From positions 1 through 46,921 of the forward strand of contig JANWIY010000090.1 in assembly GCA_025449645.1 (NCBI GenBank): a stretch of 46,921 nt of DNA. The letters run 5' to 3'. Position numbers and translations under genes: made by a program. Each line of letters starts with the position of its first letter. The first letter of the stretch is position 1. Positions 9,086 through 43,203 of the stretch are shown here, in pieces. The notes beneath the pieces are model-generated. The model was not told the DNA's origin. It made no database searches and worked only from the letters and a program-made list of their open reading frames with translations. Source of the DNA: Chitinophagaceae bacterium. GTDB lineage: Bacteria > Bacteroidota > Bacteroidia > Chitinophagales > Chitinophagaceae.

Positions 9086-9173
9086 AATGTGAAAATATGT
9101 AAATGTGTAAATGTGAAAATGAGAAGAACGAGGATTTAGTTCAACCATTTACACAATAGCACATTTTCACATT
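9086..9173 (+). repeat. Inverted TGTGAAAA-family repeat between rplD and rplW
   Basis: The left arm 9086-9113 begins at the base after the rplD stop. The right arm 9146-9173 is its reverse complement apart from a central 8-base block. The outer 11 bases (AATGTGAAAAT) and inner 9 bases (GTGTAAATG) match exactly. The loop is 32 bases. In mRNA it would form a long AU-rich hairpin ending about 25 bases before the rplW start. Confidence 0.85.
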
Positions 9174-9198
9174 GATTATAAATTTTCAAATTGTTCTA

Positions 9199-9498
9199 AT
9201 GAAACTAACAGAGGTTCTGATCCGGCCGATTCTTACAGAAAAAGCGAATGCCCAGCAGGAAAAGTTGCGCCGATATGCTTTCAAAGTAAACACCAGGGCC
9301 AATAAACTGGAGATCAGGAAGGCGATCGAAGATTTTTACGGCATTACTGTGGTTGATGTGAACACCGTTGTGGTTCCGAGCAAGGCCCGTTCGAGGTCAA
9401 CAAAAGCCGGATTGATCGTGGGTCGCAAGCCGGGCTATAAAAAAGCCCTGATCACCCTGGCAGAAGGCGAAACAATTGATTTGTATTCGAATATTTAA
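9199..9498 (+). CDS. rplW: 50S ribosomal protein L23
   Basis: Sits at the exit-tunnel rim and docks trigger factor and SRP. The start at 9199 gives 99 residues beginning MKLTEVLIRPILTEKA, the usual family N-terminus. An in-frame upstream ATG at 9172 would fall in the inverted repeat and is rejected. The conserved IRKAIEDFYGITVVDVNTV and GRKPGYKKALITLAEG segments are present. Confidence 0.96.
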   Translation: MKLTEVLIRPILTEKANAQQEKLRRYAFKVNTRANKLEIRKAIEDFYGITVVDVNTVVVPSKARSRSTKAGLIVGRKPGYKKALITLAEGETIDLYSNI

Positions 9499-9569
9499 AT
9501 AAATTAAGAATGGCATTCAACTGCCGCGAAAGTTGGAGTTTACATCATAAATATTCTGTAGAATAAAAT

Positions 9570-10409
9570 ATGGCGCTAAGAAAATTTAAACCGGTAACGG
9601 CCGGGACCAGGTGGAGGATCGGAAATGCCTATGCGGAGGTTACATCATCTGATCCGGAAAAAACTCTGCTTGAAAAAATACCTGTTACTGCGGGCCGGAA
9701 TGCGCAAGGCAGAAGGGCAATGAGATATATGGGCGGCGGGCACAAGAAGATGTATCGCATGGTGGATTTCAAAAGAGACAAGAAGGGCGTGCCGGGAGTC
9801 GTTGCATCCATTGAATATGATCCATACAGAACGGCATTTATCGCCCTGCTCCATTACAGTGATGGAGAAAAGAGATATATTATCGCGCCCCAGGGTCTGC
9901 AGGTTGGATCTACCGTTCTTTCCGGTGACGGCGTTGTGCCCGAAATTGGAAATGCATTGCAGTTGAAAAACATTCCGCTGGGTACCAACGTGCACAATAT
10001 TGAAATGCAGCCCGGCCAGGGCGGTAAGCTGGTTCGGAGCGCCGGCGCCTCTGCCCAGCTGACCAACAAGGAAGATAAACATGCTGTGCTGAAGATGCCT
10101 TCCGGCGAACTAAGAAAGATATTGATTAACTGTTATGCCACAATCGGTGTTGTTTCGAACAGCGACCATAGCCTGCAGAGCATGGGTAAGGCGGGACGTA
10201 ACAGGTGGAGAGGCATTCGGCCACGCACAAGAGGTGTGGCGATGAATCCAGTGGATCACCCGATGGGCGGCGGAGAAGGAAAAGCTTCAGGTGGCCAGCC
10301 ACGTTCCAGAAACGGTCAATACTCCAGGGGACTTAAGACCAGAACCCGGGGGAAAGGAAGCGATAAACTGATTATTCAGACGAAAAAAGGAAAGAAGATC
10401 ACGAAGTAA
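9570..10409 (+). CDS. rplB: 50S ribosomal protein L2
   Basis: One of the most conserved 23S rRNA-binding proteins, required for subunit joining and peptidyl transfer. The 279 residues begin MALRKFKPVTAGTRWR. The signature NPVDHPMGGGEGKASGGQPR near the C-terminus includes the His implicated in peptidyl transferase function. The upstream 71-base spacer is AT-rich without clear structure. The downstream spacer holds a perfect 13-bp hairpin and an 8-mer array. Confidence 0.97.
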   Translation: MALRKFKPVTAGTRWRIGNAYAEVTSSDPEKTLLEKIPVTAGRNAQGRRAMRYMGGGHKKMYRMVDFKRDKKGVPGVVASIEYDPYRTAFIALLHYSDGEKRYIIAPQGLQVGSTVLSGDGVVPEIGNALQLKNIPLGTNVHNIEMQPGQGGKLVRSAGASAQLTNKEDKHAVLKMPSGELRKILINCYATIGVVSNSDHSLQSMGKAGRNRWRGIRPRTRGVAMNPVDHPMGGGEGKASGGQPRSRNGQYSRGLKTRTRGKGSDKLIIQTKKGKKITK

Positions 10410-10415
10410 TTAAAT

Positions 10416-10501
10416 AATGTGTCAATATGAAAATGTGGAAATGGGTTTCATATTGACATTCGGAATAAAAATAAATTTTCACATTTTCACATTTTCACAT
10501 T
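10416..10501 (+). repeat. Hairpin plus TTTTCACA direct repeats between rplB and rpsS
   Basis: TGTCAATATGAAA (10420-10432) pairs perfectly with TTTCATATTGACA (10446-10458), giving a 13-bp stem with a 13-base loop. It is followed at 10475-10501 by three copies of an 8-base unit, TTTTCACA, running up to the rpsS leader. GAAAATGTG (10429-10437) is complementary to those units, so a second, mutually exclusive fold is possible. Confidence 0.85.
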
Positions 10502-10513
10502 AACTCATTAGCT

Positions 10514-10792
10514 ATGGGTCGGTCAATAAAAAAAGGTCCTTACGTAGACGCAAATCTGGAAAACAAAGTGCTTGGGATCAATGATGGCAAGGCAAAGAAA
10601 AGTGTCATTAAGACCTGGAGCCGCCGTTCTACCATCACGCCGGATTTTGTGGGTCATACTTTCGCCGTGCATAATGGCAACAAGTTTATCCCGGTGTATG
10701 TAACAGAGTTCATGGTTGGCCATAAGCTGGGAGAATTCGCACCGACCCGGAATTTTAAAGGTCATTCCAGTAAGAAGATTGTTGAATCATGA
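10514..10792 (+). CDS. rpsS: 30S ribosomal protein S19
   Basis: Small-subunit head protein that binds 16S rRNA with S13. The 92 residues begin [20 protein letters not shown]. It has the typical [24 protein letters not shown] core and [16 protein letters not shown] tail. The start is fixed by the family N-terminus and lies 12 bases after the repeat array. Confidence 0.97.
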
Positions 10793-10850
10793 TGTTTACA
10801 TTTATTGGCATACTTAAGAAAGATCACATCAAGAGAACAAACGAGAAAAA

Positions 10851-11195
10851 ATGGAAGCATTAGCAAAATTGAAAAATTACCCGACCTCTCCCCGCAAGAT
10901 GCGCTTGCTGGCAGATGAGATCAGGGGACTGCAGGTGGAAAAAGCCCTGGCATTGCTTGAGCATCATCCACAACATTCCTCAACGCCGCTGTATAAACTG
11001 TTGTGGTCTGCTGTAAAAAACTGGGAACAAAAAAATGAAGGGAAAAGTGCGGCTGATGCGGGCCTGCTTGTGAAAACAATATTTGTGGACGGCGCACGGG
11101 TGCTGAAAAGAATGCGGCCTGCTCCTCAGGGACGGGGTTACCGGGTTCGAAAACGCAGTAATCATATTACGCTGGTGGTGGATGAGAAAGGCTAA
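10851..11195 (+). CDS. rplV: 50S ribosomal protein L22
   Basis: 23S rRNA-binding protein whose hairpin lines the exit tunnel. The 114 residues contain [20 protein letters not shown] at the N-terminus and [32 protein letters not shown] at the C-terminal hairpin. The region near residues 40-60 ([16 protein letters not shown]) diverges from the proteobacterial form, as in other Bacteroidota. It lies between rpsS and rpsC in standard order. Confidence 0.95.
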
Positions 11196-11263
11196 AAAGT
11201 AAAAATTAAAAATTGAATACATGAGAATTTGGAATTGCTTTCAGATTAAGCAACTGCGTTAAC

Positions 11264-11287
11264 AAATTATCAAATTATCAAATTAAT
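11264..11287 (+). repeat. Short AAATTATC 8-mer repeat before rpsC
   Basis: Two exact copies of AAATTATC followed by AAATTAA lie 8 bases upstream of the rpsC ATG, at the end of a 99-base AT-rich spacer after rplV. This is a short member of the CAAATTTT-like 8-mer family seen before other genes of the cluster. No clear inverted left arm is visible here. Confidence 0.55.
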
Positions 11288-11294
11288 CAGCTAC

Positions 11295-12092
11295 ATGGGT
11301 CAGAAAACAAATCCTATTGGTGCGAGACTGGGAATCATCCGTGGTTGGGAATCCAACTGGTACGGCAGCAAGAAAGATTATTCAGTAAAGCTGATCGAAG
11401 ACAACAAGATCAGGACCTACCTGAATGCCCGCATCAACAAGGGTGGTATTGCGAAGATTGTCATTGAGCGCACACTCAATAAACTGATCGTGACCATTCA
11501 TACTTCCAAACCCGGAATTATCATTGGTAAGGGAGGGGGAGAGGTAGACCGCATCAAGGAAGAATTGAAGAAACTGACCGGCAAGGAAGATGTTCAAATT
11601 AACATACTGGAAATCCGCCGCCCGGAACTGGATGCAAATATTGTTGCTGATACCATTGCGAGACAAATTGAAAACCGGATTAACTATAAGAGGGCAATCA
11701 AGATGGCCATTGCTTCTGCGCTCAGGATGGGTGCTGAAGGAATTAAAGTAAAAGTGGGCGGCCGCCTGGGTGGTTCGGAAATAGCCAGAACTGAAGAGAT
11801 CAAGCAGGGGCGTACGCCTTTGCATACGCTTCGGATGGATATTGACTATGCCAATGTATTTGCGCTTACTGTTTACGGGAAAATCGGTGTTAAGGTATGG
11901 ATCTGCAAAGGAGAAGTGCTTACGAAGAGGGACCTGAATCCGAATTTTGTAGGAGGTAAGAGCGATGTGAGCGACAGAAGGGACAGAAGGGATGATCTCC
12001 GGGATGAGCGCGGCCGCGGTGGCGACAGAGACAGAAGAGGCGGTGGCGGAGAAAGAAGAGGTGGTGGAGGTGGAAGGGACAGGAGGGGTTAA
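11295..12092 (+). CDS. rpsC: 30S ribosomal protein S3 with an Arg/Gly-rich C-terminal tail
   Basis: mRNA-entry-channel protein with helicase-like activity. The type II KH domain has [14 protein letters not shown] (about 74-87), and the C-terminal domain has [17 protein letters not shown] and [10 protein letters not shown]. The protein is 265 residues, longer than the 233 of E. coli, because of a low-complexity tail from about 221. The tail is first Asp/Arg-rich ([16 protein letters not shown]) and then RGG-like ([10 protein letters not shown]), ending RDRRG. The nucleotide run is purine-rich and repetitive. rplP follows after 33 bases. The tail could add RNA contacts at the mRNA entry side; that is inference. 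Confidence 0.96.
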
Positions 12093-12125
12093 TTTTCAAT
12101 TTATCAAATTTTCAAACTCGAAAAC

Positions 12126-12548
12126 ATGTTACAGCCCAAGAGGACGAAACATAGGAAGGCGCAGAAAGGAAGGATCCGTGCAATTGCAAAAAGAGGAAGC
12201 GATATTTCCTTTGGTTCCTATGGTCTTAAAGCCCTTGAGGGGATCTGGTTAACCAACCGTCAGCTGGAGGCAGCCCGTCAGGCGCTGACCCGGTCCATGA
12301 AGCGTGAGGGAAATGTGTGGATCAGGGTTTTTCCGGATAAGCCGATCACAAAAAAGCCGCAGGAAGTGAGGATGGGTAAAGGAAAGGGTAACCCGGAATA
12401 CTGGGCGGCGGTAGTGGAACCGGGCCGTATGCTTTTTGAAGCAGATGGTGTTCCGGAAGCCGTCGCAAAGGAGGCATTGCTTCTGGCCGCACAGAAACTG
12501 CCTATCAAAACAAAGTTTGTAGTTCGTCATGATGTGACACCAATGTAA
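12126..12548 (+). CDS. rplP: 50S ribosomal protein L16
   Basis: Helps position aminoacyl-tRNA in the A site. The 140 residues begin [24 protein letters not shown] and include the functional loop [17 protein letters not shown] and the [19 protein letters not shown] motif. The spacers on both sides carry short ATCAAATTTTCAAA-type runs. Confidence 0.97.
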
Positions 12549-12566
12549 TTATCAAATTTTCAAATT
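12548..12566 (+). repeat. Short CAAATTTT-family run between rplP and rpmC
   Basis: An ATTATCAAATTTTCAAATT run starts at the last base of the rplP stop and ends 7 bases before the rpmC ATG. A sister copy (TCAATTTATCAAATTTTCAAAC, interrupted) lies at 12097-12119 between rpsC and rplP. Both look like right arms without a left arm. Confidence 0.5.
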
Positions 12567-12573
12567 AAACAGG

Positions 12574-12777
12574 ATGGCAAAGCGAAACGACCTGGTAAAT
12601 AGCCTGAAGGACCTGAGTGAAGTCGATCTGAATGCGAGGATCAAAGAAGATGAAATGCGTTTGAAAAAACTGAGGTTTGCGCATGCGATTTCCCCGCTGG
12701 AAAGCCCGGTTACCATTCGTCTGCTCAGAAAAGATATTGCGCGTTTAAAAACCGCGCTGACAAAAAAGAAAATGTGA
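12574..12777 (+). CDS. rpmC: 50S ribosomal protein L29
   Basis: Small two-helix protein at the exit-tunnel rim, next to L23. The 67 residues start MAKRNDLVNSLKDLSEVDLN and end KTALTKKKM; the RLKKLRFAHAISPLESPVTIRLLRKDIARLKT pattern is typical. Its TGA stop (12775-12777) is part of the first repeat unit of the following inverted repeat, so translation ends inside the left arm. Confidence 0.95.
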   Translation: MAKRNDLVNSLKDLSEVDLNARIKEDEMRLKKLRFAHAISPLESPVTIRLLRKDIARLKTALTKKKM

Positions 12778-12851
12778 AAATGTGTTAATGTGAGAATGAA
12801 GAAGATGCATAAATTAATTTACATATTTACACATTAGCACATTTACACATT
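12771..12851 (+). repeat. Inverted TGTGAAAA-family repeat between rpmC and rpsQ, overlapping the rpmC stop
   Basis: The left arm 12771-12798 holds units of AATGTG(A/T)AAATGTG. The right arm 12822-12851 is its reverse complement with only a few mismatches over about 28 positions. The loop is 23 bases. The rpmC stop codon is within the left arm. A terminating ribosome would therefore melt the base of the hairpin. Confidence 0.85.
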
Positions 12852-12877
12852 ATTATGAATGTTTCAAATAAGCAACT

Positions 12878-13135
12878 ATGTCAGATAGAAATTTAAGGAA
12901 AACGAGAACGGGGGTTGTCAGCAGTAACAGAATGGATAAGACCGTGGTTGTTGCCGTTGAAAGAAAAGTTCAGCACCCGATCTACGGTAAGTTCCTGAAA
13001 AAAACAACCAAGTTTCACGCGCATGATGAAAAGAATGAGTGCAGTATCGGAGATGTTGTGCGGATCATGGAAAGCCGTCCCTTAAGCAAAACCAAGCGCT
13101 GGCGCCTGGTGGAAATCGTGGAGAAAGCGAAATAA
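12878..13135 (+). CDS. rpsQ: 30S ribosomal protein S17
   Basis: Primary 16S rRNA-binding protein with an OB fold. The 85 residues start [25 protein letters not shown], with [25 protein letters not shown] and the [23 protein letters not shown]-terminus. This is the expected position between rpmC and rplN. Confidence 0.97.
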
Positions 13136-13160
13136 TTCGGAATTCTAAAATCGTATTGAA

Positions 13161-13529
13161 ATGATTCAGCAGGAAAGCAGACTTAACGTTGCCGATAATA
13201 GCGGGGCCAAAGAAGTATTGTGCATCCGGGTGCTTGGAAACAGCGGACAGGACTATGCCAGGATCGGGGACAAAATTGTTGTGACTGTTAAAGACGCCTT
13301 GCCTGCCGGGGGCATTAAAAAAGGTACGGTGACTAAAGCGGTGATCGTGCGGACTAAAAACAAATTGCGCCGCAAAGATGGTTCTTACATTCGATTCGAT
13401 GATAATGCCGTGGTCCTGTTAACCACAAGTGATGAGCCCAGGGGGACGCGTATTTTTGGACCGGTGGCCAGGGAACTCCGGGATAAAGGATATATGAAAA
13501 TTATTTCACTCGCGCCGGAAGTGCTTTAG
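13161..13529 (+). CDS. rplN: 50S ribosomal protein L14
   Basis: Forms intersubunit bridge B8 with 16S rRNA. The 122 residues begin [26 protein letters not shown] and contain the [17 protein letters not shown] and [26 protein letters not shown] signatures. Its TAG stop is followed 4 bases later by a perfect 11-copy heptamer array. Confidence 0.97.
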
Positions 13530-13533
13530 AATA

Positions 13534-13610
13534 GTTATGGGTTATGGGTTATGGGTTATGGGTTATGGGTTATGGGTTATGGGTTATGGGTTATGGGTTA
13601 TGGGTTATGG
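13534..13610 (+). repeat. Perfect (GTTATGG)x11 heptamer array between rplN and rplX
   Basis: Seventy-seven bases consist of 11 uninterrupted identical copies of GTTATGG, 4 bases after the rplN stop and 87 bases before the rplX start. Unlike most other repeats in the cluster there is no reverse-complement arm downstream. Perfect tandem copies suggest recent expansion and likely copy-number variation by replication slippage. It contains in-frame TAT/GGG/TTA-type codons but no gene. Confidence 0.97.
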
Positions 13611-13697
13611 GGAAACGCAAGTTCATGATATTTTTGAAATAATAATTTTAGGGGCGTTCAACGATTTGCGTTAAGCGTTCCGGGTAAAAGGAGAAAA

Positions 13698-14036
13698 ATG
13701 AGCAACAGATTTAAACCGAAGTTCAATATTAAGAAAGGAGATAAGGTAGTAATTATTTCGGGGGATGATAAAGACCTGAAGAAATCTCGGAAGGTGCTGG
13801 AGGTATATCCGGAAGAATCGCGGGTGCTGGTGGAGGGTGTGAATATAGTTACCAAACACAGCAAACCTTCTGCCCAGAATACCAAGGGCGGTATTTTGAA
13901 AAAAGAATCGCCTGTGCATATTTCCAATGTGTTGCTCTGGGATGCCAGATCAGGCGGCCCTACCAAAGTAAAACTCACCCGGGAGAATGGTAAACTTGTA
14001 CGCATTGCAAAAAAATCAGAGGAGGTAATTAAATAA
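13698..14036 (+). CDS. rplX: 50S ribosomal protein L24
   Basis: Assembly-initiator protein for 23S rRNA, with a KOW motif at [29 protein letters not shown] (about 10-38). The 112 residues end in a KKSEEVIK tail. GGAGAAAA stands just before the start, one of the few Shine-Dalgarno-like stretches here. Its TAA overlaps the rplE ATG by one base (TAATG), so the two are translationally coupled. Confidence 0.96.
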
Positions 14037-14608
14037 TGAGCACAGTTAAATATTCTGCACGCCTGGCAGCTAAGTACAAAAAGGAAGTCGTTCCTGCTTT
14101 AATGAAGCGGTTTGGCTATAAGACGGTTATGCAGGCTCCAAAACTGGAAAAGATTTGTTTGAACCGGGGAATCAACGGAGCGGTGGCAGATAAAAAGCTC
14201 GTGGATATTTCAATAGAAGAACTGACGACTATTACCGGCCAGAAAGCCGTATCGACCGTATCCAAAAAAGATATTTCCAACTTTAAACTCCGTAAGGGAT
14301 TGCCAATCGGAGCCAGGGTGACCCTTCGCGGGGTGAAAATGTATGAATTCCTGGACAGACTGGTGGCAGCTGCCCTCCCAAGGGTGCGCGATTTCAAAGG
14401 CGTGAGTGAGAAATCCTTTGATGGCCGTGGAAATTATACTATGGGAATCACTGAGCAGATCATCTTTCCAGAAGTGGATATCGATAAAGTAAATAAGATT
14501 ACGGGTATGGATATCACTTTTGTGACTACGGCAAAAACGAACGAAGAAGCATTTGAGCTGCTGAAGGAACTGGGTATGCCGTTTAGGAATGCAAAGAAGG
14601 AAGGATAG
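14036..14608 (+). CDS. rplE: 50S ribosomal protein L5
   Basis: Binds 5S rRNA and contacts P-site tRNA. The 190 residues contain [29 protein letters not shown] and the conserved [19 protein letters not shown] segment. The start overlaps the rplX stop by one base. A lone TGTGAAAA-type half repeat (14609-14622) follows its stop. The rest of the 174-base gap to rpsN has no clear feature. Confidence 0.97.
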
Positions 14609-14622
14609 AAAATGTGAAAATG
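14609..14622 (+). repeat. Lone half element of the TGTGAAAA family after rplE
   Basis: AAAATGTGAAAATG starts at the base after the rplE TAG, exactly where the left arm of the inverted repeats starts after rplD. No complementary right arm is found before rpsN (14783). It looks like a decayed or incomplete copy. Confidence 0.45.
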
Positions 14623-14782
14623 CTTCGCCTTACGATAAGAAGGGAAGACAGACCCAAACGGACCTCCTGCTATCGCCAGGGAATAGGAATAGAAGATTGG
14701 GAATTTAATCAGGATTTAAATTCCGGACAAAAGCAGAAGGATATGAAATATAAACCAGGTTCAAATCAATAAATAAAAGTTC

Positions 14783-15052
14783 ATGGCCAAAGAATCAGTC
14801 AAAGCCAGACAAAGAAAGCGCGAGGCATTGGTTGCAAGATATGCTGAAAAGCGCGCTGCACTTAAAGCCGCAGGCGATTACAGGGCACTCGATCTGCTTC
14901 CAAAGAATGCATCACCGGTGCGTTTAAAGAACCGCTGTCAGCTTACGGGCAGGCCGCGTGGATATATCCGTTATTTTGGAGTTTCCAGGGGAGTATTTCG
15001 CGATATGGCGTTGCAGGGAAAGATACCGGGTGTAAGAAAGGCAAGCTGGTAA
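14783..15052 (+). CDS. rpsN: 30S ribosomal protein S14, zinc-independent form
   Basis: Head protein of the small subunit. It has 89 residues beginning [20 protein letters not shown], the long form. The four-cysteine zinc ribbon is absent: only one Cys is present, in [13 protein letters not shown]. This is the C- type that does not need zinc. The usual C-terminus [11 protein letters not shown] is intact. A 27-bp inverted repeat begins 4 bases after its stop. Confidence 0.96.
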
Positions 15053-15056
15053 AAAA

Positions 15057-15123
15057 GTTGATGGTTGATAGTTGATGGTTGATTGCATTTAAGTCCATCA
15101 ACTATCAACTATCAACCATCAAC
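15057..15123 (+). repeat. Inverted GTTGATG heptamer repeat between rpsN and rpsH
   Basis: The left arm 15057-15083 is made of four GTTGAT(G/A) heptamers. The right arm 15097-15123 is its reverse complement with a single difference that would be a G-U pair in RNA. The result is a 27-bp stem with a 13-base loop. The same heptamer family occurs before the SRP RNA gene at 42920-43028. Confidence 0.9.
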
Positions 15124-15155
15124 GAAAAAATTAATAAGCAATTAATAAGTATAAA

Positions 15156-15554
15156 ATGGTTACCGATCCAATAGCAGATTTTCTGACAAGAATCCGTAAT
15201 GCGCAGATGGCGAATCACCGGATCGTGGAAATTCCGGCTTCGAACCTGAAAAGGCGCATGACAGAAATATTGTATGATAAAGGCTATATTCTTAAATATA
15301 AATTTGAGGAAAACAGTAAGCAGGGCGTGATTAAAATTGCCCTGAAGTACGATCCTCAAACAAAGGAGCCGGCAATCCGGAGCCTGGAACGGGTGAGTCG
15401 TCCGGGCCTTCGCCAATACGCGAGTCCCGTCGAATTCAAGCGGGTTAAAAACGGATTGGGCATTGCTATAGTCTCGACGTCAAAAGGAGTAATGACCGAC
15501 AAGGATGCTAAAGCCCAGAATGTGGGCGGTGAAGTGCTTTGTCATGTTTATTAA
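15156..15554 (+). CDS. rpsH: 30S ribosomal protein S8
   Basis: Central-domain 16S rRNA-binding protein; in E. coli it represses the spc operon. The 132 residues begin [22 protein letters not shown] and end [31 protein letters not shown], the full family pattern including the VSTSKG rRNA-contact loop. Confidence 0.97.
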
Positions 15555-15608
15555 TAAACAGATGGAGGGATTTGTTGTCAGGATTGGAATTAGAAAAACA
15601 GAAATCAG

Positions 15609-15630
15609 CACATTTTCAAATTTTCAAATT
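15609..15630 (+). repeat. Short CAAATTTT-family run before rplF
   Basis: CACATTTTCAAATTTTCAAATT-type 8-base periodicity lies 5 bases upstream of the rplF start. It is a right-arm-like copy. No matching left arm follows the rpsH stop. It links the CACATTTT and CAAATTTT families in one run. Confidence 0.6.
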
Positions 15631-15635
15631 AACAT

Positions 15636-16190
15636 ATGTCCAGGATAGGTAAAAAACCGGTTCTTATTCCCAAGGGGATAACTGTGAATGTAAGTAAGGA
15701 CAATGTCGTTACGGTCAAAGGCCCGAAAGGGGAATTGAAACAGACGGTTGACCGCGACATAACTGTTGAGGTGAAGGAAAATCAGGTTGAGTTTTCAAGG
15801 CCTACCGACCAGATCCGTCACCGTGCTTTGCATGGCTTATACCGTTCCCTCATGTCCAACATGGTGAAAGGGGTATCGGACGGGTACAGGAAACAGCTGG
15901 AATTGATCGGGGTTGGTTTTAAAGCTTCGAATCAGGGAAACCTGCTCGACCTTGCACTTGGCTATTCGCATAATATCATTTTCGAAGTACCGAAGGAATT
16001 GAAAGTAGCCACCGCCCAGGAAAAGGGAGAAAATCCTAAGATCCTCCTGGAAGGCAGCGACAAACAGCTGATCGGACAGGTTGCAGCGAAGATCCGGAGT
16101 CTCCGCAAGCCGGAACCTTATAAGGGCAAAGGCGTTCGCTACGCGGGTGAAGTGGTTCGTAAGAAAGCTGGCAAGGCAGCAGGGAAGTAA
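15636..16190 (+). CDS. rplF: 50S ribosomal protein L6
   Basis: Binds near the sarcin-ricin loop and factor-binding site. The 184 residues have two repeated L6 domains, starting MSRIGKKPVLIPKGITVNV and ending with the conserved RKPEPYKGKGVRYAGEVVRKKAGKA. It is followed by a short AT-rich spacer before rplR. Confidence 0.97.
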   Translation: MSRIGKKPVLIPKGITVNVSKDNVVTVKGPKGELKQTVDRDITVEVKENQVEFSRPTDQIRHRALHGLYRSLMSNMVKGVSDGYRKQLELIGVGFKASNQGNLLDLALGYSHNIIFEVPKELKVATAQEKGENPKILLEGSDKQLIGQVAAKIRSLRKPEPYKGKGVRYAGEVVRKKAGKAAGK

Positions 16191-16214
16191 TATTCAAATT
16201 TTTAAATTGAGACA

Positions 16215-16565
16215 ATGGAAACGCTTTTAAAAAGACAAAAAATAAGATACCGGATACGCAAAAAAGTTTCCGGCCGTGCTGATATGCCCCGCTTATCCGT
16301 TTTCAGGAGTAATAATGAAATCTATGTACAATTAATCGATGATATTACTGGCAGAACACTGGCAGCCGCTTCTTCCAGAGAAAAAGATATTGTAGCTCAG
16401 AAAGTGACAAAAACGGAAAAGAGTAAACTGGTTGGAGCCGCTATTGCGCGGAGAGCAAAGGAACTGGGTATTGAGCATGTGGTTTTTGACCGTGGCGGGA
16501 ATTTGTATCATGGCAGGGTAAAAGCTGTGGCAGATTCAGCGCGCGAAGGTGGATTACAGTTTTAA
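16215..16565 (+). CDS. rplR: 50S ribosomal protein L18
   Basis: Binds 5S rRNA in the central protuberance. The 116 residues contain [33 protein letters not shown] and the C-terminal [26 protein letters not shown], which is close to universal. Standard order rplF-rplR-rpsE. Confidence 0.97.
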
Positions 16566-16600
16566 AAAGTACAATAAAAGCTTATACGTAAATATTTATC

Positions 16601-17122
16601 ATGGCAACGACGAATGTAGTTTCGAAGATCAAGGCCGGTGACCTGGAATTAAAAGAAAAGGTAGTTTCCATCAACCGCGTAGTGAAGACGACCAAAGGCG
16701 GCCGGGCTTTTAGTTTTTCAGCGCTGGTGGTTGTTGGCAATCAAGCCGGCATAGTCGGCCATGGTCTGGGTAAGGCCAAGGAAGTCCAGGAGGCCATAAC
16801 AAAAGGAATTGAGGATGCAAAGAAAAATCTTATACGTGTTCCTGTAATGCATGGAACCATTCCTCATGATCAGCTAGCGAAGGAAGGCGCCGCAAAAGTG
16901 CTGATCAAGCCTGCTGCACATGGAACGGGCGTTATCGCCGGAGGCAGCATGCGCGCTGTGTTGGAAAGTGCAGGTATTACTGATGTTCTGGCCAAATCGC
17001 TGGGATCTGCAAACCCGCACAATGTGGTGAAAGCGACTTTTAAGGCCCTCAACCTGCTCAGGGAGCCAATCCAGGTTTCAAGAACAAGGAATTTGTCGCT
17101 GAAGAAAATATTCAATGGATAA
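16601..17122 (+). CDS. rpsE: 30S ribosomal protein S5
   Basis: Fidelity-related protein at the mRNA entry and decoding side. It has 173 residues. The N-terminal double-stranded-RNA-binding-like domain has [29 protein letters not shown], and the C-terminal domain contains [19 protein letters not shown]. The following 168-base gap to rpmD is AT-rich and holds no gene or strong hairpin that I can support. Confidence 0.97.
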
Positions 17123-17290
17123 TCAGGAATAACCGGAAGGAAATGAAACGTCTGTGATAGAATTTTTATTAATGCATAAGTGGAACGGGAACCAAGTGTG
17201 AATGCCATTAGAAAGACAAAAATGCCCGTGAATAATAAAAATTTTATGATGATTAGTTTCATCTGACCGGGAAACAATAAAAATGAGCAG

Positions 17291-17473
17291 ATGAAAAAGA
17301 TCAGAATTACACAAATAAAAAGCGCTATCGACAGGCCGGAGCGTCAGAAGCTGACGCTCAAAGCGCTGGGGTTGAAAAAAATGAATAACCCCAGGGAAGT
17401 GGTAGCGACGCCTCAGATATTGGGGATGGTGCGCACAGTGGGCCATCTGCTGAAAGTGGAGGAGGTCGGATGA
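17291..17473 (+). CDS. rpmD: 50S ribosomal protein L30
   Basis: Small 23S rRNA-binding protein. The 60 residues read [20 protein letters not shown] at the start, then [40 protein letters not shown] three-codon ATG mini-frame (17283) overlaps the start but is out of frame. The TGA stop (17471-17473) runs directly into, and shares its last base with, the left arm of the next repeat. Confidence 0.95.
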
Positions 17474-17561
17474 TTTGAAAATTTGAAAATGTGGTAATTT
17501 GAAAATTAGATTACCATGTTTCAGAAATTTTCAAATTTTCAAATTTTCAAATTTTCAAATT
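17473..17561 (+). repeat. Inverted CAAATTTT-family repeat between rpmD and rplO
   Basis: The left part has ATTTGAAA x2 + AT (17473-17490) and AATTTGAAAATT (17496-17507). The right part 17526-17561 is four exact AATTTTCA units plus AATT. The 18-base left arm can pair perfectly in three registers (17527-17544, 17535-17552, 17543-17560). A small GGTAAT/ATTACC stem (17493-17498/17510-17515) lies inside. The array ends 6 bases before the rplO start. Confidence 0.88.
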
Positions 17562-42919: not shown

Positions 42920-43028
42920 GGTTGATGGTTGATGGTTGATGGTTGATGGGCTGGTGCCTATTTAAGTACACTTTTGGAATTCTGGTTCGGTATTGCACAT
43001 AAAGTCCATCAACCATCAACCATCAACC
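42920..43028 (+). repeat. Inverted GGTTGAT heptamer repeat upstream of the SRP RNA
   Basis: Four exact GGTTGAT units (42920-42947) begin at the base after the DUF5103-gene stop. Three exact reverse-complement units, ATCAACC (43008-43028), follow after a loop of about 60 bases. Arm copy numbers differ, four against three. This is the same family as 15057-15123, but here it lies between a protein gene and an RNA gene. Confidence 0.9.
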
Positions 43029-43033
43029 CCATA

Positions 43034-43065
43034 TTTCCTCTCTTACCTCATTTGTCTTACCTTTG
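43034..43065 (+). promoter_or_regulatory. Promoter of the SRP RNA gene
   Basis: TTTC at 43034-43037 (one mismatch from TTTG), 20 bases, then TACCTTTG at 43058-43065. The start would fall right at the first paired bases of the RNA (43070). Confidence 0.7.
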
Positions 43066-43069
43066 CAGC

Positions 43070-43163
43070 GGCAAGTCTTATACGACCAGCTCCTGCTGAA
43101 TCCCCCAGGGCCGGAAGGCAGCAAGGGTAGGTGGTCGTAGCGGTGCGATGTAAGTAACTTGCC
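43070..43163 (+). ncRNA. ffs: Signal recognition particle RNA (4.5S type)
   Basis: The RNA scaffold of SRP, which binds Ffh and directs nascent membrane proteins to SecYEG. The conserved apical helix 8 loop CCGGAAGGCAGCAAGGG is present at about 43111-43127, and the ends pair through GGCAAG (43070-43075) and CTTGCC (43158-43163). At about 94 bases it has the small bacterial form without an Alu domain. A T-rich stretch follows for termination. It lies between a heptamer hairpin and the transaldolase gene. Confidence 0.9.
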
Positions 43164-43203
43164 ATTTTTATTTTATTCCTTTCAACTTGTATAAAATTAT
43201 CGT

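Follow-up and report, generated by a model that had tools for sequence, protein, structure and literature searches.

The ribosomal protein (r-protein) operon of a Chitinophagaceae bacterium carries, in the spacers between its genes, inverted repeats in which each arm is a short array of 7- or 8-bp units, an architecture that we term the tandem-armed hairpin. The operon is the S10-spc cluster contained in the 46,921-nt stretch of DNA analysed here (the window). The hairpins are dispersed and lineage-specific, and the units of one arm mirror those of the other. Sister genomes differ in which hairpins they have, and the elements have a tendency to lie directly after a stop codon. We see about an even chance that they are tolerated intergenic elements turned over by processes acting on the DNA itself. 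The genome from which the window comes (the own genome, G000) is a 3.59 Mb assembly in 190 contigs and is 86% complete; the sister genome G007 is 99% complete, and 17 comparison genomes are taken to be congeneric with the window's genome.

Strong inverted arms are found in four spacers of the window's operon (rplD-rplW, rplB-rpsS, rpsN-rpsH and rpmD-rplO), starting 0, 5, 4 and 0 nt from the upstream stop codon, respectively. The initial annotation had described tandem 7- and 8-base units in the spacers of this operon, with inverted arms in five of them that begin at or near the upstream stop. The units and arms are real: 7- and 8-bp arrays are recovered in the window by Tandem Repeats Finder (TRF), the arms are detected, and no such element appeared when the r-protein spacers were dinucleotide-shuffled. 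The placement at the stop holds in all four strong cases; the fifth spacer, rpmC-rpsQ, has weaker arms of 15 nt with a detector score of 12 and no array exceeding the detector threshold. RNA folding z scores of the five named spacers range from -2.9 to -11.1. The elements, in window coordinates, are as follows.

9086..9173: 8-mer hairpin, rplD-rplW; arms 9086-9113/9146-9173 (28 nt, 86%), beginning at the stop codon; fold z -3.67.
10407..10510: 8-mer hairpin, rplB-rpsS; arms 10407-10442/10475-10510 (36 nt, 81%), with a perfect 13-nt pair nested inside (10420-10432/10446-10458); fold z -4.98; found in G007 too.
11259..11285: 8-mer array (TTATCAAA), rplV-rpsC; one arm in the window, a hairpin in G007.
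12091..12116: 8-mer array, rpsC-rplP; single arm.
12547..12567: 8-mer array, rplP-rpmC; single arm in a 25-nt spacer; the G007 spacer is 100 nt with hairpin-like arms.
12778..12844: weaker 8-mer hairpin, rpmC-rpsQ; 15-nt arms 12778-12792/12830-12844; arrays at 12768-12798 and 12817-12851, the repeat unit containing the rpmC stop codon; fold z -2.89.
13534..13611: GTTATGG direct array, rplN-rplX; 11.1 perfect copies (TRF) with no inverted partner; not seen in the G007 spacer.
15057..15123: 7-mer hairpin of the GTTGATGG family, rpsN-rpsH; arms 15057-15083/15097-15123 (27 nt, 96%); fold z -11.10; absent from G007, where the spacer is 36 nt.
15612..15630: 8-mer array, rpsH-rplF; single arm.
16191..16214: short remnant of a 3' arm, rplF-rplR; spacer of 24 nt; the full arm is kept in G007 (99-nt spacer).
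17473..17560: 8-mer hairpin, rpmD-rplO; arms 17473-17507/17526-17560 (35 nt, 91%), beginning at the stop codon; fold z -6.51; found in G007 and L099 as well.
42920..43028: 7-mer hairpin of the GTTGATGG family, directly upstream of the signal recognition particle (SRP) RNA gene; fold z -8.22.

The small SRP RNA gene itself (RF04183, 102.9 bits) lies at 43062-43168, directly 3' of the last hairpin, and was the sole match at gathering score when the window and loci L110 and L145 were searched against Rfam 15. A known Rfam element is accordingly rejected as the identity of the hairpins in these three sequences.

Beyond the operon, the class is spread over the genome. An 8-mer pattern (TTTTCAMATTTTCAMA) has 76 matches in the own genome, seven of them inside the window, and a 7-mer pattern (GTTGATRGTTGAT) has 268, against eight for the reversed control. 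In all, 58 tandem-armed hairpins of 55-185 bp were counted in a 902-kb own sample of 60 stretches, of which 40 came from batches with many contigs picked for pattern matches and 20 (~229 kb) were picked blind; 11 hairpins are listed in the blind-picked stretches. The proposal that such repeats are a speciality of the r-protein cluster, with 42920-43028 as the lone outlier, is true within the window only, and the genome-wide counts rule out a restriction to r-protein operons. By spacer type, own hairpins occur in 36/351 co-directional, 16/77 convergent and 6/97 divergent spacers, so that their relative frequency is highest in convergent ones; genes outside the curated cluster were called simply as open reading frames of at least 80 aa, and this simple caller misses small genes such as rpmD and makes some spacer types wrong (the rplV-rpsC spacer of G007, for example, was called convergent).

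Several unit families make up the class. Hairpins of the 8-mer family AAAATGTG/AAAATTTG lie in co-directional spacers in 16 of 17 own-sample cases, and their neighbours include genes of r-proteins S4 and S11, of NADH dehydrogenase subunits and others (20 of the 25 flanking proteins were scanned). The 7-mer GTTGATGG family, with the variants GTAGATGG, GTGGATGG, GTATATGG and GTTGACGG, has a decayed palindromic core between its arms that is often common to different copies, and this common core marks the copies as related. AAAAAGT, GTTATGG and further units are present too. These families are narrowly distributed: one GTTGATGG pattern has 134 matches in the own genome, 40 in G007, three in G005 and none in 16 other genomes, and a GCAAGCT pattern has 40 matches in G002 and none in 18 other genomes. 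A pattern for exact hairpins matched five of 147 family genomes, the own genome included, and is too strict for mapping the range of the class.

The arms of individual hairpins mirror each other in the order of their unit variants. Over 78 elements the summed score was 1820 compared with 1613.8 for permuted unit orders (z 9.76; 0 of 5000 permutations as good), with z values of 7.2 in the own genome, 4.8 in G007 and 4.3 in the others, and in a test of unit order 22 were strictly best where 7.5 were expected. Arms also match their own partners better than arms exchanged within the family, at 0.823 vs 0.640 in the 8-mer family and 0.874 vs 0.546 in the GTTGATGG family. Within 23 GTTGATGG elements, and with the caveat of ascertainment, the arms are 94% (0.941) and the loop halves 43% (0.432) complementary.

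The own-genome sample was compared with G007, for which 285 kb were sampled. Among 78 orthologous spacers a hairpin was detected in both genomes in five, in the own genome only in six, in G007 only in three and in neither in 64; this one-sided count overstates the turnover of hairpins, because in at least three of the nine one-sided cases (rplD-rplW, L205_17592 and L206_1260) paired arms can still be recognised by eye in the genome without a detected hairpin. Eight pairs of arms were compared between the genomes, and three of them have clearly different yet self-complementary arms: L205_5983/L183 (0.91 and 0.92 within the elements, 0.46 and 0.54 between genomes), L205_4546/L183 (0.88 and 1.0 within, 0.73 and 0.55 between) and L206_1260/L184 (0.83 and 0.89 within, 0.11 and 0.14 between), where the 7-mer itself differs, TTATGAA vs ACAATGG. 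From these sequences the two sides of a hairpin seem to change together over evolution. By eye, the TTATGAA hairpin at L206:1260-1372 seems to sit inside remnants of ACAATGG, the unit of its G007 counterpart (L184:14326-14471), as if new arms arose within old. In the rplF-rplR and rplP-rpmC spacers the window retains 3'-arm remnants in spacers of 24 and 25 nt, where G007 has both arms in spacers of 99 and 100 nt, and, judging by these two cases, the half elements in the window's spacers look like remnants of hairpins.

Mismatches between arms bear on whether pairing is maintained at the level of RNA or of DNA. Selection on sense RNA stems would be expected to leave more G-U than A-C among these mismatches. 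G-T and A-C mismatches number 48 and 39 in co-directional spacers, and 64 and 53 when all spacers are taken together (p 0.36); the tRNA control, of three tRNAs only, had 58 Watson-Crick pairs, eight G-T and no A-C. Arm mismatches in the own genome amount to 74/937 in co-directional, 30/448 in convergent and 7/148 in divergent spacers. A DNA-level cause is favoured because there is no G-U preference and pairing is no better in operons, and the mirroring needs no RNA selection because arm-to-arm copying at the DNA level explains it.

The same architecture recurs in the r-protein clusters of relatives, tallied over 89 loci after exclusion of those with fewer than six genes found and of L081, L082 and L087, which duplicate L106, L100 and L110. 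Hairpins occur in the cluster in 34 of the 89 loci (66 hairpins in 1315 spacers), and five shuffles of each of these spacers yielded none. The unit is 7 bp in 27 hairpins and 8 bp in 39, even though the detector permitted units of 6-10 bp. Rough single-linkage grouping places the 66 hairpins in approximately 18 unit clusters, and the earlier observation that dissimilar units share one common layout therefore extends to the relatives. The rpmD-rplO spacer illustrates this, with hairpins in 14/93 spacers and clearly dissimilar units (TTTGAAAA in the window, GTGAAAGG in L157, TTAGCTAA in L137 and TGAATTA in L121). Zero hairpins were detected in rplC-rplD (73 spacers), rplW-rplB (77), rplX-rplE (18), rplE-rpsN (83) and rplO-secY (94), and none, at a slightly stricter threshold, in 65 spacers from seven loci of other families of the order (L092-L098). 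The architecture also occurs in the records of isolates such as Niastella caeni (L132), Terrimonas sp. NS-102 (L107) and Longitalea arenae (L141).

In this set the hairpin starts at most 6 nt from the stop in 40/66 cases, compared with 19.8 expected under random placement within the spacer, and at most 20 nt from it in 63/66; it ends at most 6 nt from the next start in 6/66. For co-directional elements of the own genome and G007, starts within 6 nt of the stop number 14/21 in the 8-mer family (6.9 expected) and 11/27 in the rest (2.9 expected). The stop codon itself is sometimes part of a repeat unit (rpmC of the window; L191, L067 and L052). The arms are polar as well. Own elements have more G than C in the 5' arm in 57/58 cases, with one tie, and in this sample start triplets number 260 in 5' arms vs 0 in 3' arms and stop triplets 170 vs 30. 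Among 47 co-directional elements of other relatives, G-first outnumbers C-first by 38 to 6, and the unit clusters of the r-protein set comprise 13 G-first, four C-first and one tie. This polarity is independent of gene direction, since a palindrome reads the same on either strand. Inverted repeats without arrays (20 found; 16 G-first, 3 C-first) are no clean control for it, since among the 12 listed there are members of these same hairpin families whose arrays fall short of the threshold. The unit length of 7 or 8 bp and the G-first polarity are regularities without explanation in the present account.

The density of hairpins is raised in r-protein operons, modestly when counted by spacer (p 0.01-0.05). 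Own r-protein spacers have a hairpin in 4/18 cases vs 6/97 blind-picked co-directional spacers (p 0.049), and an 8-mer hairpin in 3/18 vs 1/97 (p 0.012); over the 89 loci, hairpins lie in 66/1315 spacers inside the clusters vs 4/220 outside (p 0.035). Enrichment is stronger by pattern matches, with 7/76 own matches in the window's cluster and 7/33 G007 matches in the r-protein stretch of C130, though the own and G007 enrichments are not independent because of common ancestry. The density difference anticipated by the initial annotation is thus present, alongside repeats that are common elsewhere in the genome too; heavy transcription is our guess as to its cause.

Other motifs were seen in the same spacers of relatives. 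Many of them (L080, L082, L083, L085, L087, L088, L089 and others) have a short hairpin, GCGAGGGG..CCCCG, preceding rplO, and the rpmD-rplO repeat hairpins, when present, are placed between the rpmD stop codon and this hairpin. By eye, the rpsH-rplF spacer of L080, L082, L083, L085, L087, L088 and L089 has a motif like ACATTAAGCC..CTATA..GGCTGACCGG upstream of rplF that has the look of a conserved RNA structure; neither the window nor G007 shows it. In the rplF-rplR spacer of L080, L085, L087 and L089, rplR is preceded by a hairpin like GGTCCTGGC..AATCAGGACC, and in the rplO-secY spacer of L079, L080, L082 and L089 a hairpin that resembles a terminator and has a T run (GACGCAT..ATGCGTCTTTTTTG) precedes secY (both by eye). 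Between rplW and rplB, the window (9499-9569), L079, L083, L088 and L090 share the conserved stretch GAATGGCATTCAACTGCCGC..AAAGTTG.

If the hairpins are tolerated elements turned over at the level of DNA, units would be gained and lost within one arm by slippage, and template switches made at the hairpin as the DNA is replicated would transfer changes from arm to arm, so that complementarity is preserved even as the sequence of the arms is replaced. For the GTTGATGG family at least, with its common core, copies would have arisen by copying from elsewhere. The position after the stop would be that of least harm from an insert in a short operon spacer, and any effect on the mRNA would be a by-product, although an mRNA role of the hairpins is possible. 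A number of points weigh against this reading. No single mutational step was seen, the sister genomes being too distant. The five other own/G007 comparisons lack joint arm change (four are about equal within and between elements, one is of unlike hairpins), so that covariation of arms between relatives holds at three of eight sites. The AAAAGT family has no partner preference (0.907 true vs 0.894 swapped), and some ascertainment remains in the mirroring because complementarity was how the arms were found. General arm-to-arm copying does not predict the poor self-complementarity of the GTTGATGG core, though pairing was also what delimited loop and arms. The G-T test is of limited power (co-directional 48/87, interval 0.44-0.66), and both the recurrence of 18 unit clusters in the same spacers and the raised r-protein density also fit selection.

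Selection is the basis of a rival explanation that we consider somewhat unlikely, in which the arms fold between the cistrons of the polycistronic mRNA, where they would shield mRNA ends or leave them open, block read-through or keep the translation of neighbouring genes separate, and selection keeps them paired while their sequence drifts. The strong RNA folds, the 40 of 66 starts at the stop, the higher density in r-protein operons, the co-directional placement of 16/17 own 8-mer hairpins and the confinement of start triplets to 5' arms all agree with it. The lack of an excess of G-U mismatches, equally good pairing in divergent and convergent spacers, the absence of any hairpin from the cluster of all but 34 of 89 loci, and the hairpins missing in G007 at rpsN-rpsH and other sites do not. 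Selection on structure, proposed at the outset from the shared layout, therefore keeps the common layout of unlike units and the joint arm differences at 3/8 sites in its favour, set against occurrence in all spacer types and the lack of a G-U preference. Mobile palindromes, non-autonomous elements moved by some transposase whose arms acquire tandem units later, seem to us rather unlikely: the common core of the GTTGATGG family, the restricted distribution of its pattern and of GCAAGCT, and the window's rpsN-rpsH hairpin not in G007 (one gain) point towards them, while no match to the tyrosine transposase associated with repetitive extragenic palindromic (REP) sequences (RAYT, PF01797) was found in the own genome (86% complete) or G007 (99% complete), and no constant ends were seen in the 8-mer family, for which no systematic test of ends was made. 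RAYT-driven REPs are thus unsupported in the two main carriers. RNA selection and palindrome transposition could act together with DNA-level turnover. More tentatively, and at a probability well short of even, Chitinophagaceae may actively write and rewrite mirrored 7/8-bp arrays after stop codons, perhaps by a dedicated enzyme, so that the hairpin persists while its sequence is exchanged wholesale. An assembly artefact, or chance in AT-rich spacers, is extremely improbable: the assembly is fragmented and incomplete, but the shuffles of r-protein spacers gave none, which rules out a chance origin, and the same architecture is present in isolates.

Cyanobacterial short tandemly repeated repetitive (STRR) sequences are tandem short repeats. 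Long simple sequence repeats (LSSRs) likewise consist of tandem units, with heptamers the commonest class and slippage as the proposed origin (as cited in PMC4679880). The elements described here share with heptamer LSSRs and STRRs the short-unit tandem array (27 of 7 bp, 39 of 8 bp; GTTATGG x 11.1), whereas inverted arms or a mirrored unit order are not part of the definition of either in the accessible sources. Closer to hand are the TAACTGA heptamer repeats, direct repeats in intergenic regions of five Bacteroidetes, for which a translational role, and gene rearrangement for long arrays, were proposed (MacGregor, 2015; PMC4679880). These are alike in being 7-bp tandem intergenic units, including in r-protein operons. 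As far as the available text describes them, they have one unit, are direct (the main genome has a single indirect set) and lie mostly right before start codons, in contrast to the many units, inverted arms and positions mostly right after stop codons seen here. TAACTGA is not among the units found in our set, and a direct array right before a start codon is not its pattern (inverted arms; 40/66 near the stop, 6/66 near the start).

REP sequences, REPINs and RAYT-moved palindromes are dispersed, extragenic, capable of forming hairpins and linked to RAYT genes (PMC3733652, PMC3116915). The hairpins resemble them as dispersed extragenic palindromes, but arms of tandem units do not feature in the accessible parts of those descriptions, and 12 of the 19 genomes searched for PF01797 have a match, with 0 in G000 and G007. 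Inverted repeats or quasipalindromes formed by template switching are those in which one arm is copied onto the other, several compensatory bases at once (PMC8794818, PMC8604942, PMC7202029), and such homogenisation of arms has been described for RNA genes (PMC8794818). The mirrored order and three of eight sister comparisons fit this, short of a single observed step; template switching as presented in these accounts is a process and not an element family, and it includes neither tandem 7/8-bp arms nor dispersal. A literature search, in which subscription journals were thinly covered, turned up no account of such hairpins with tandem arms in Bacteroidetes, and queries with the repeat-unit strings gave no matching paper.

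The hairpins address an old question, namely how both halves of a stem can change without a broken intermediate. Since they are abundant and quick to change, are tolerated even in essential operons and differ in both arms at some sites, a comparison of close strains could reveal the individual steps. They also carry a warning: joint change of two arms is on its own no proof of a functional RNA, since here mirrored arms occur without a wobble preference. If an active rewriting process did prove to be at work in Chitinophagaceae, the hairpins would represent a class of bacterial elements in which structure is conserved and sequence is not.

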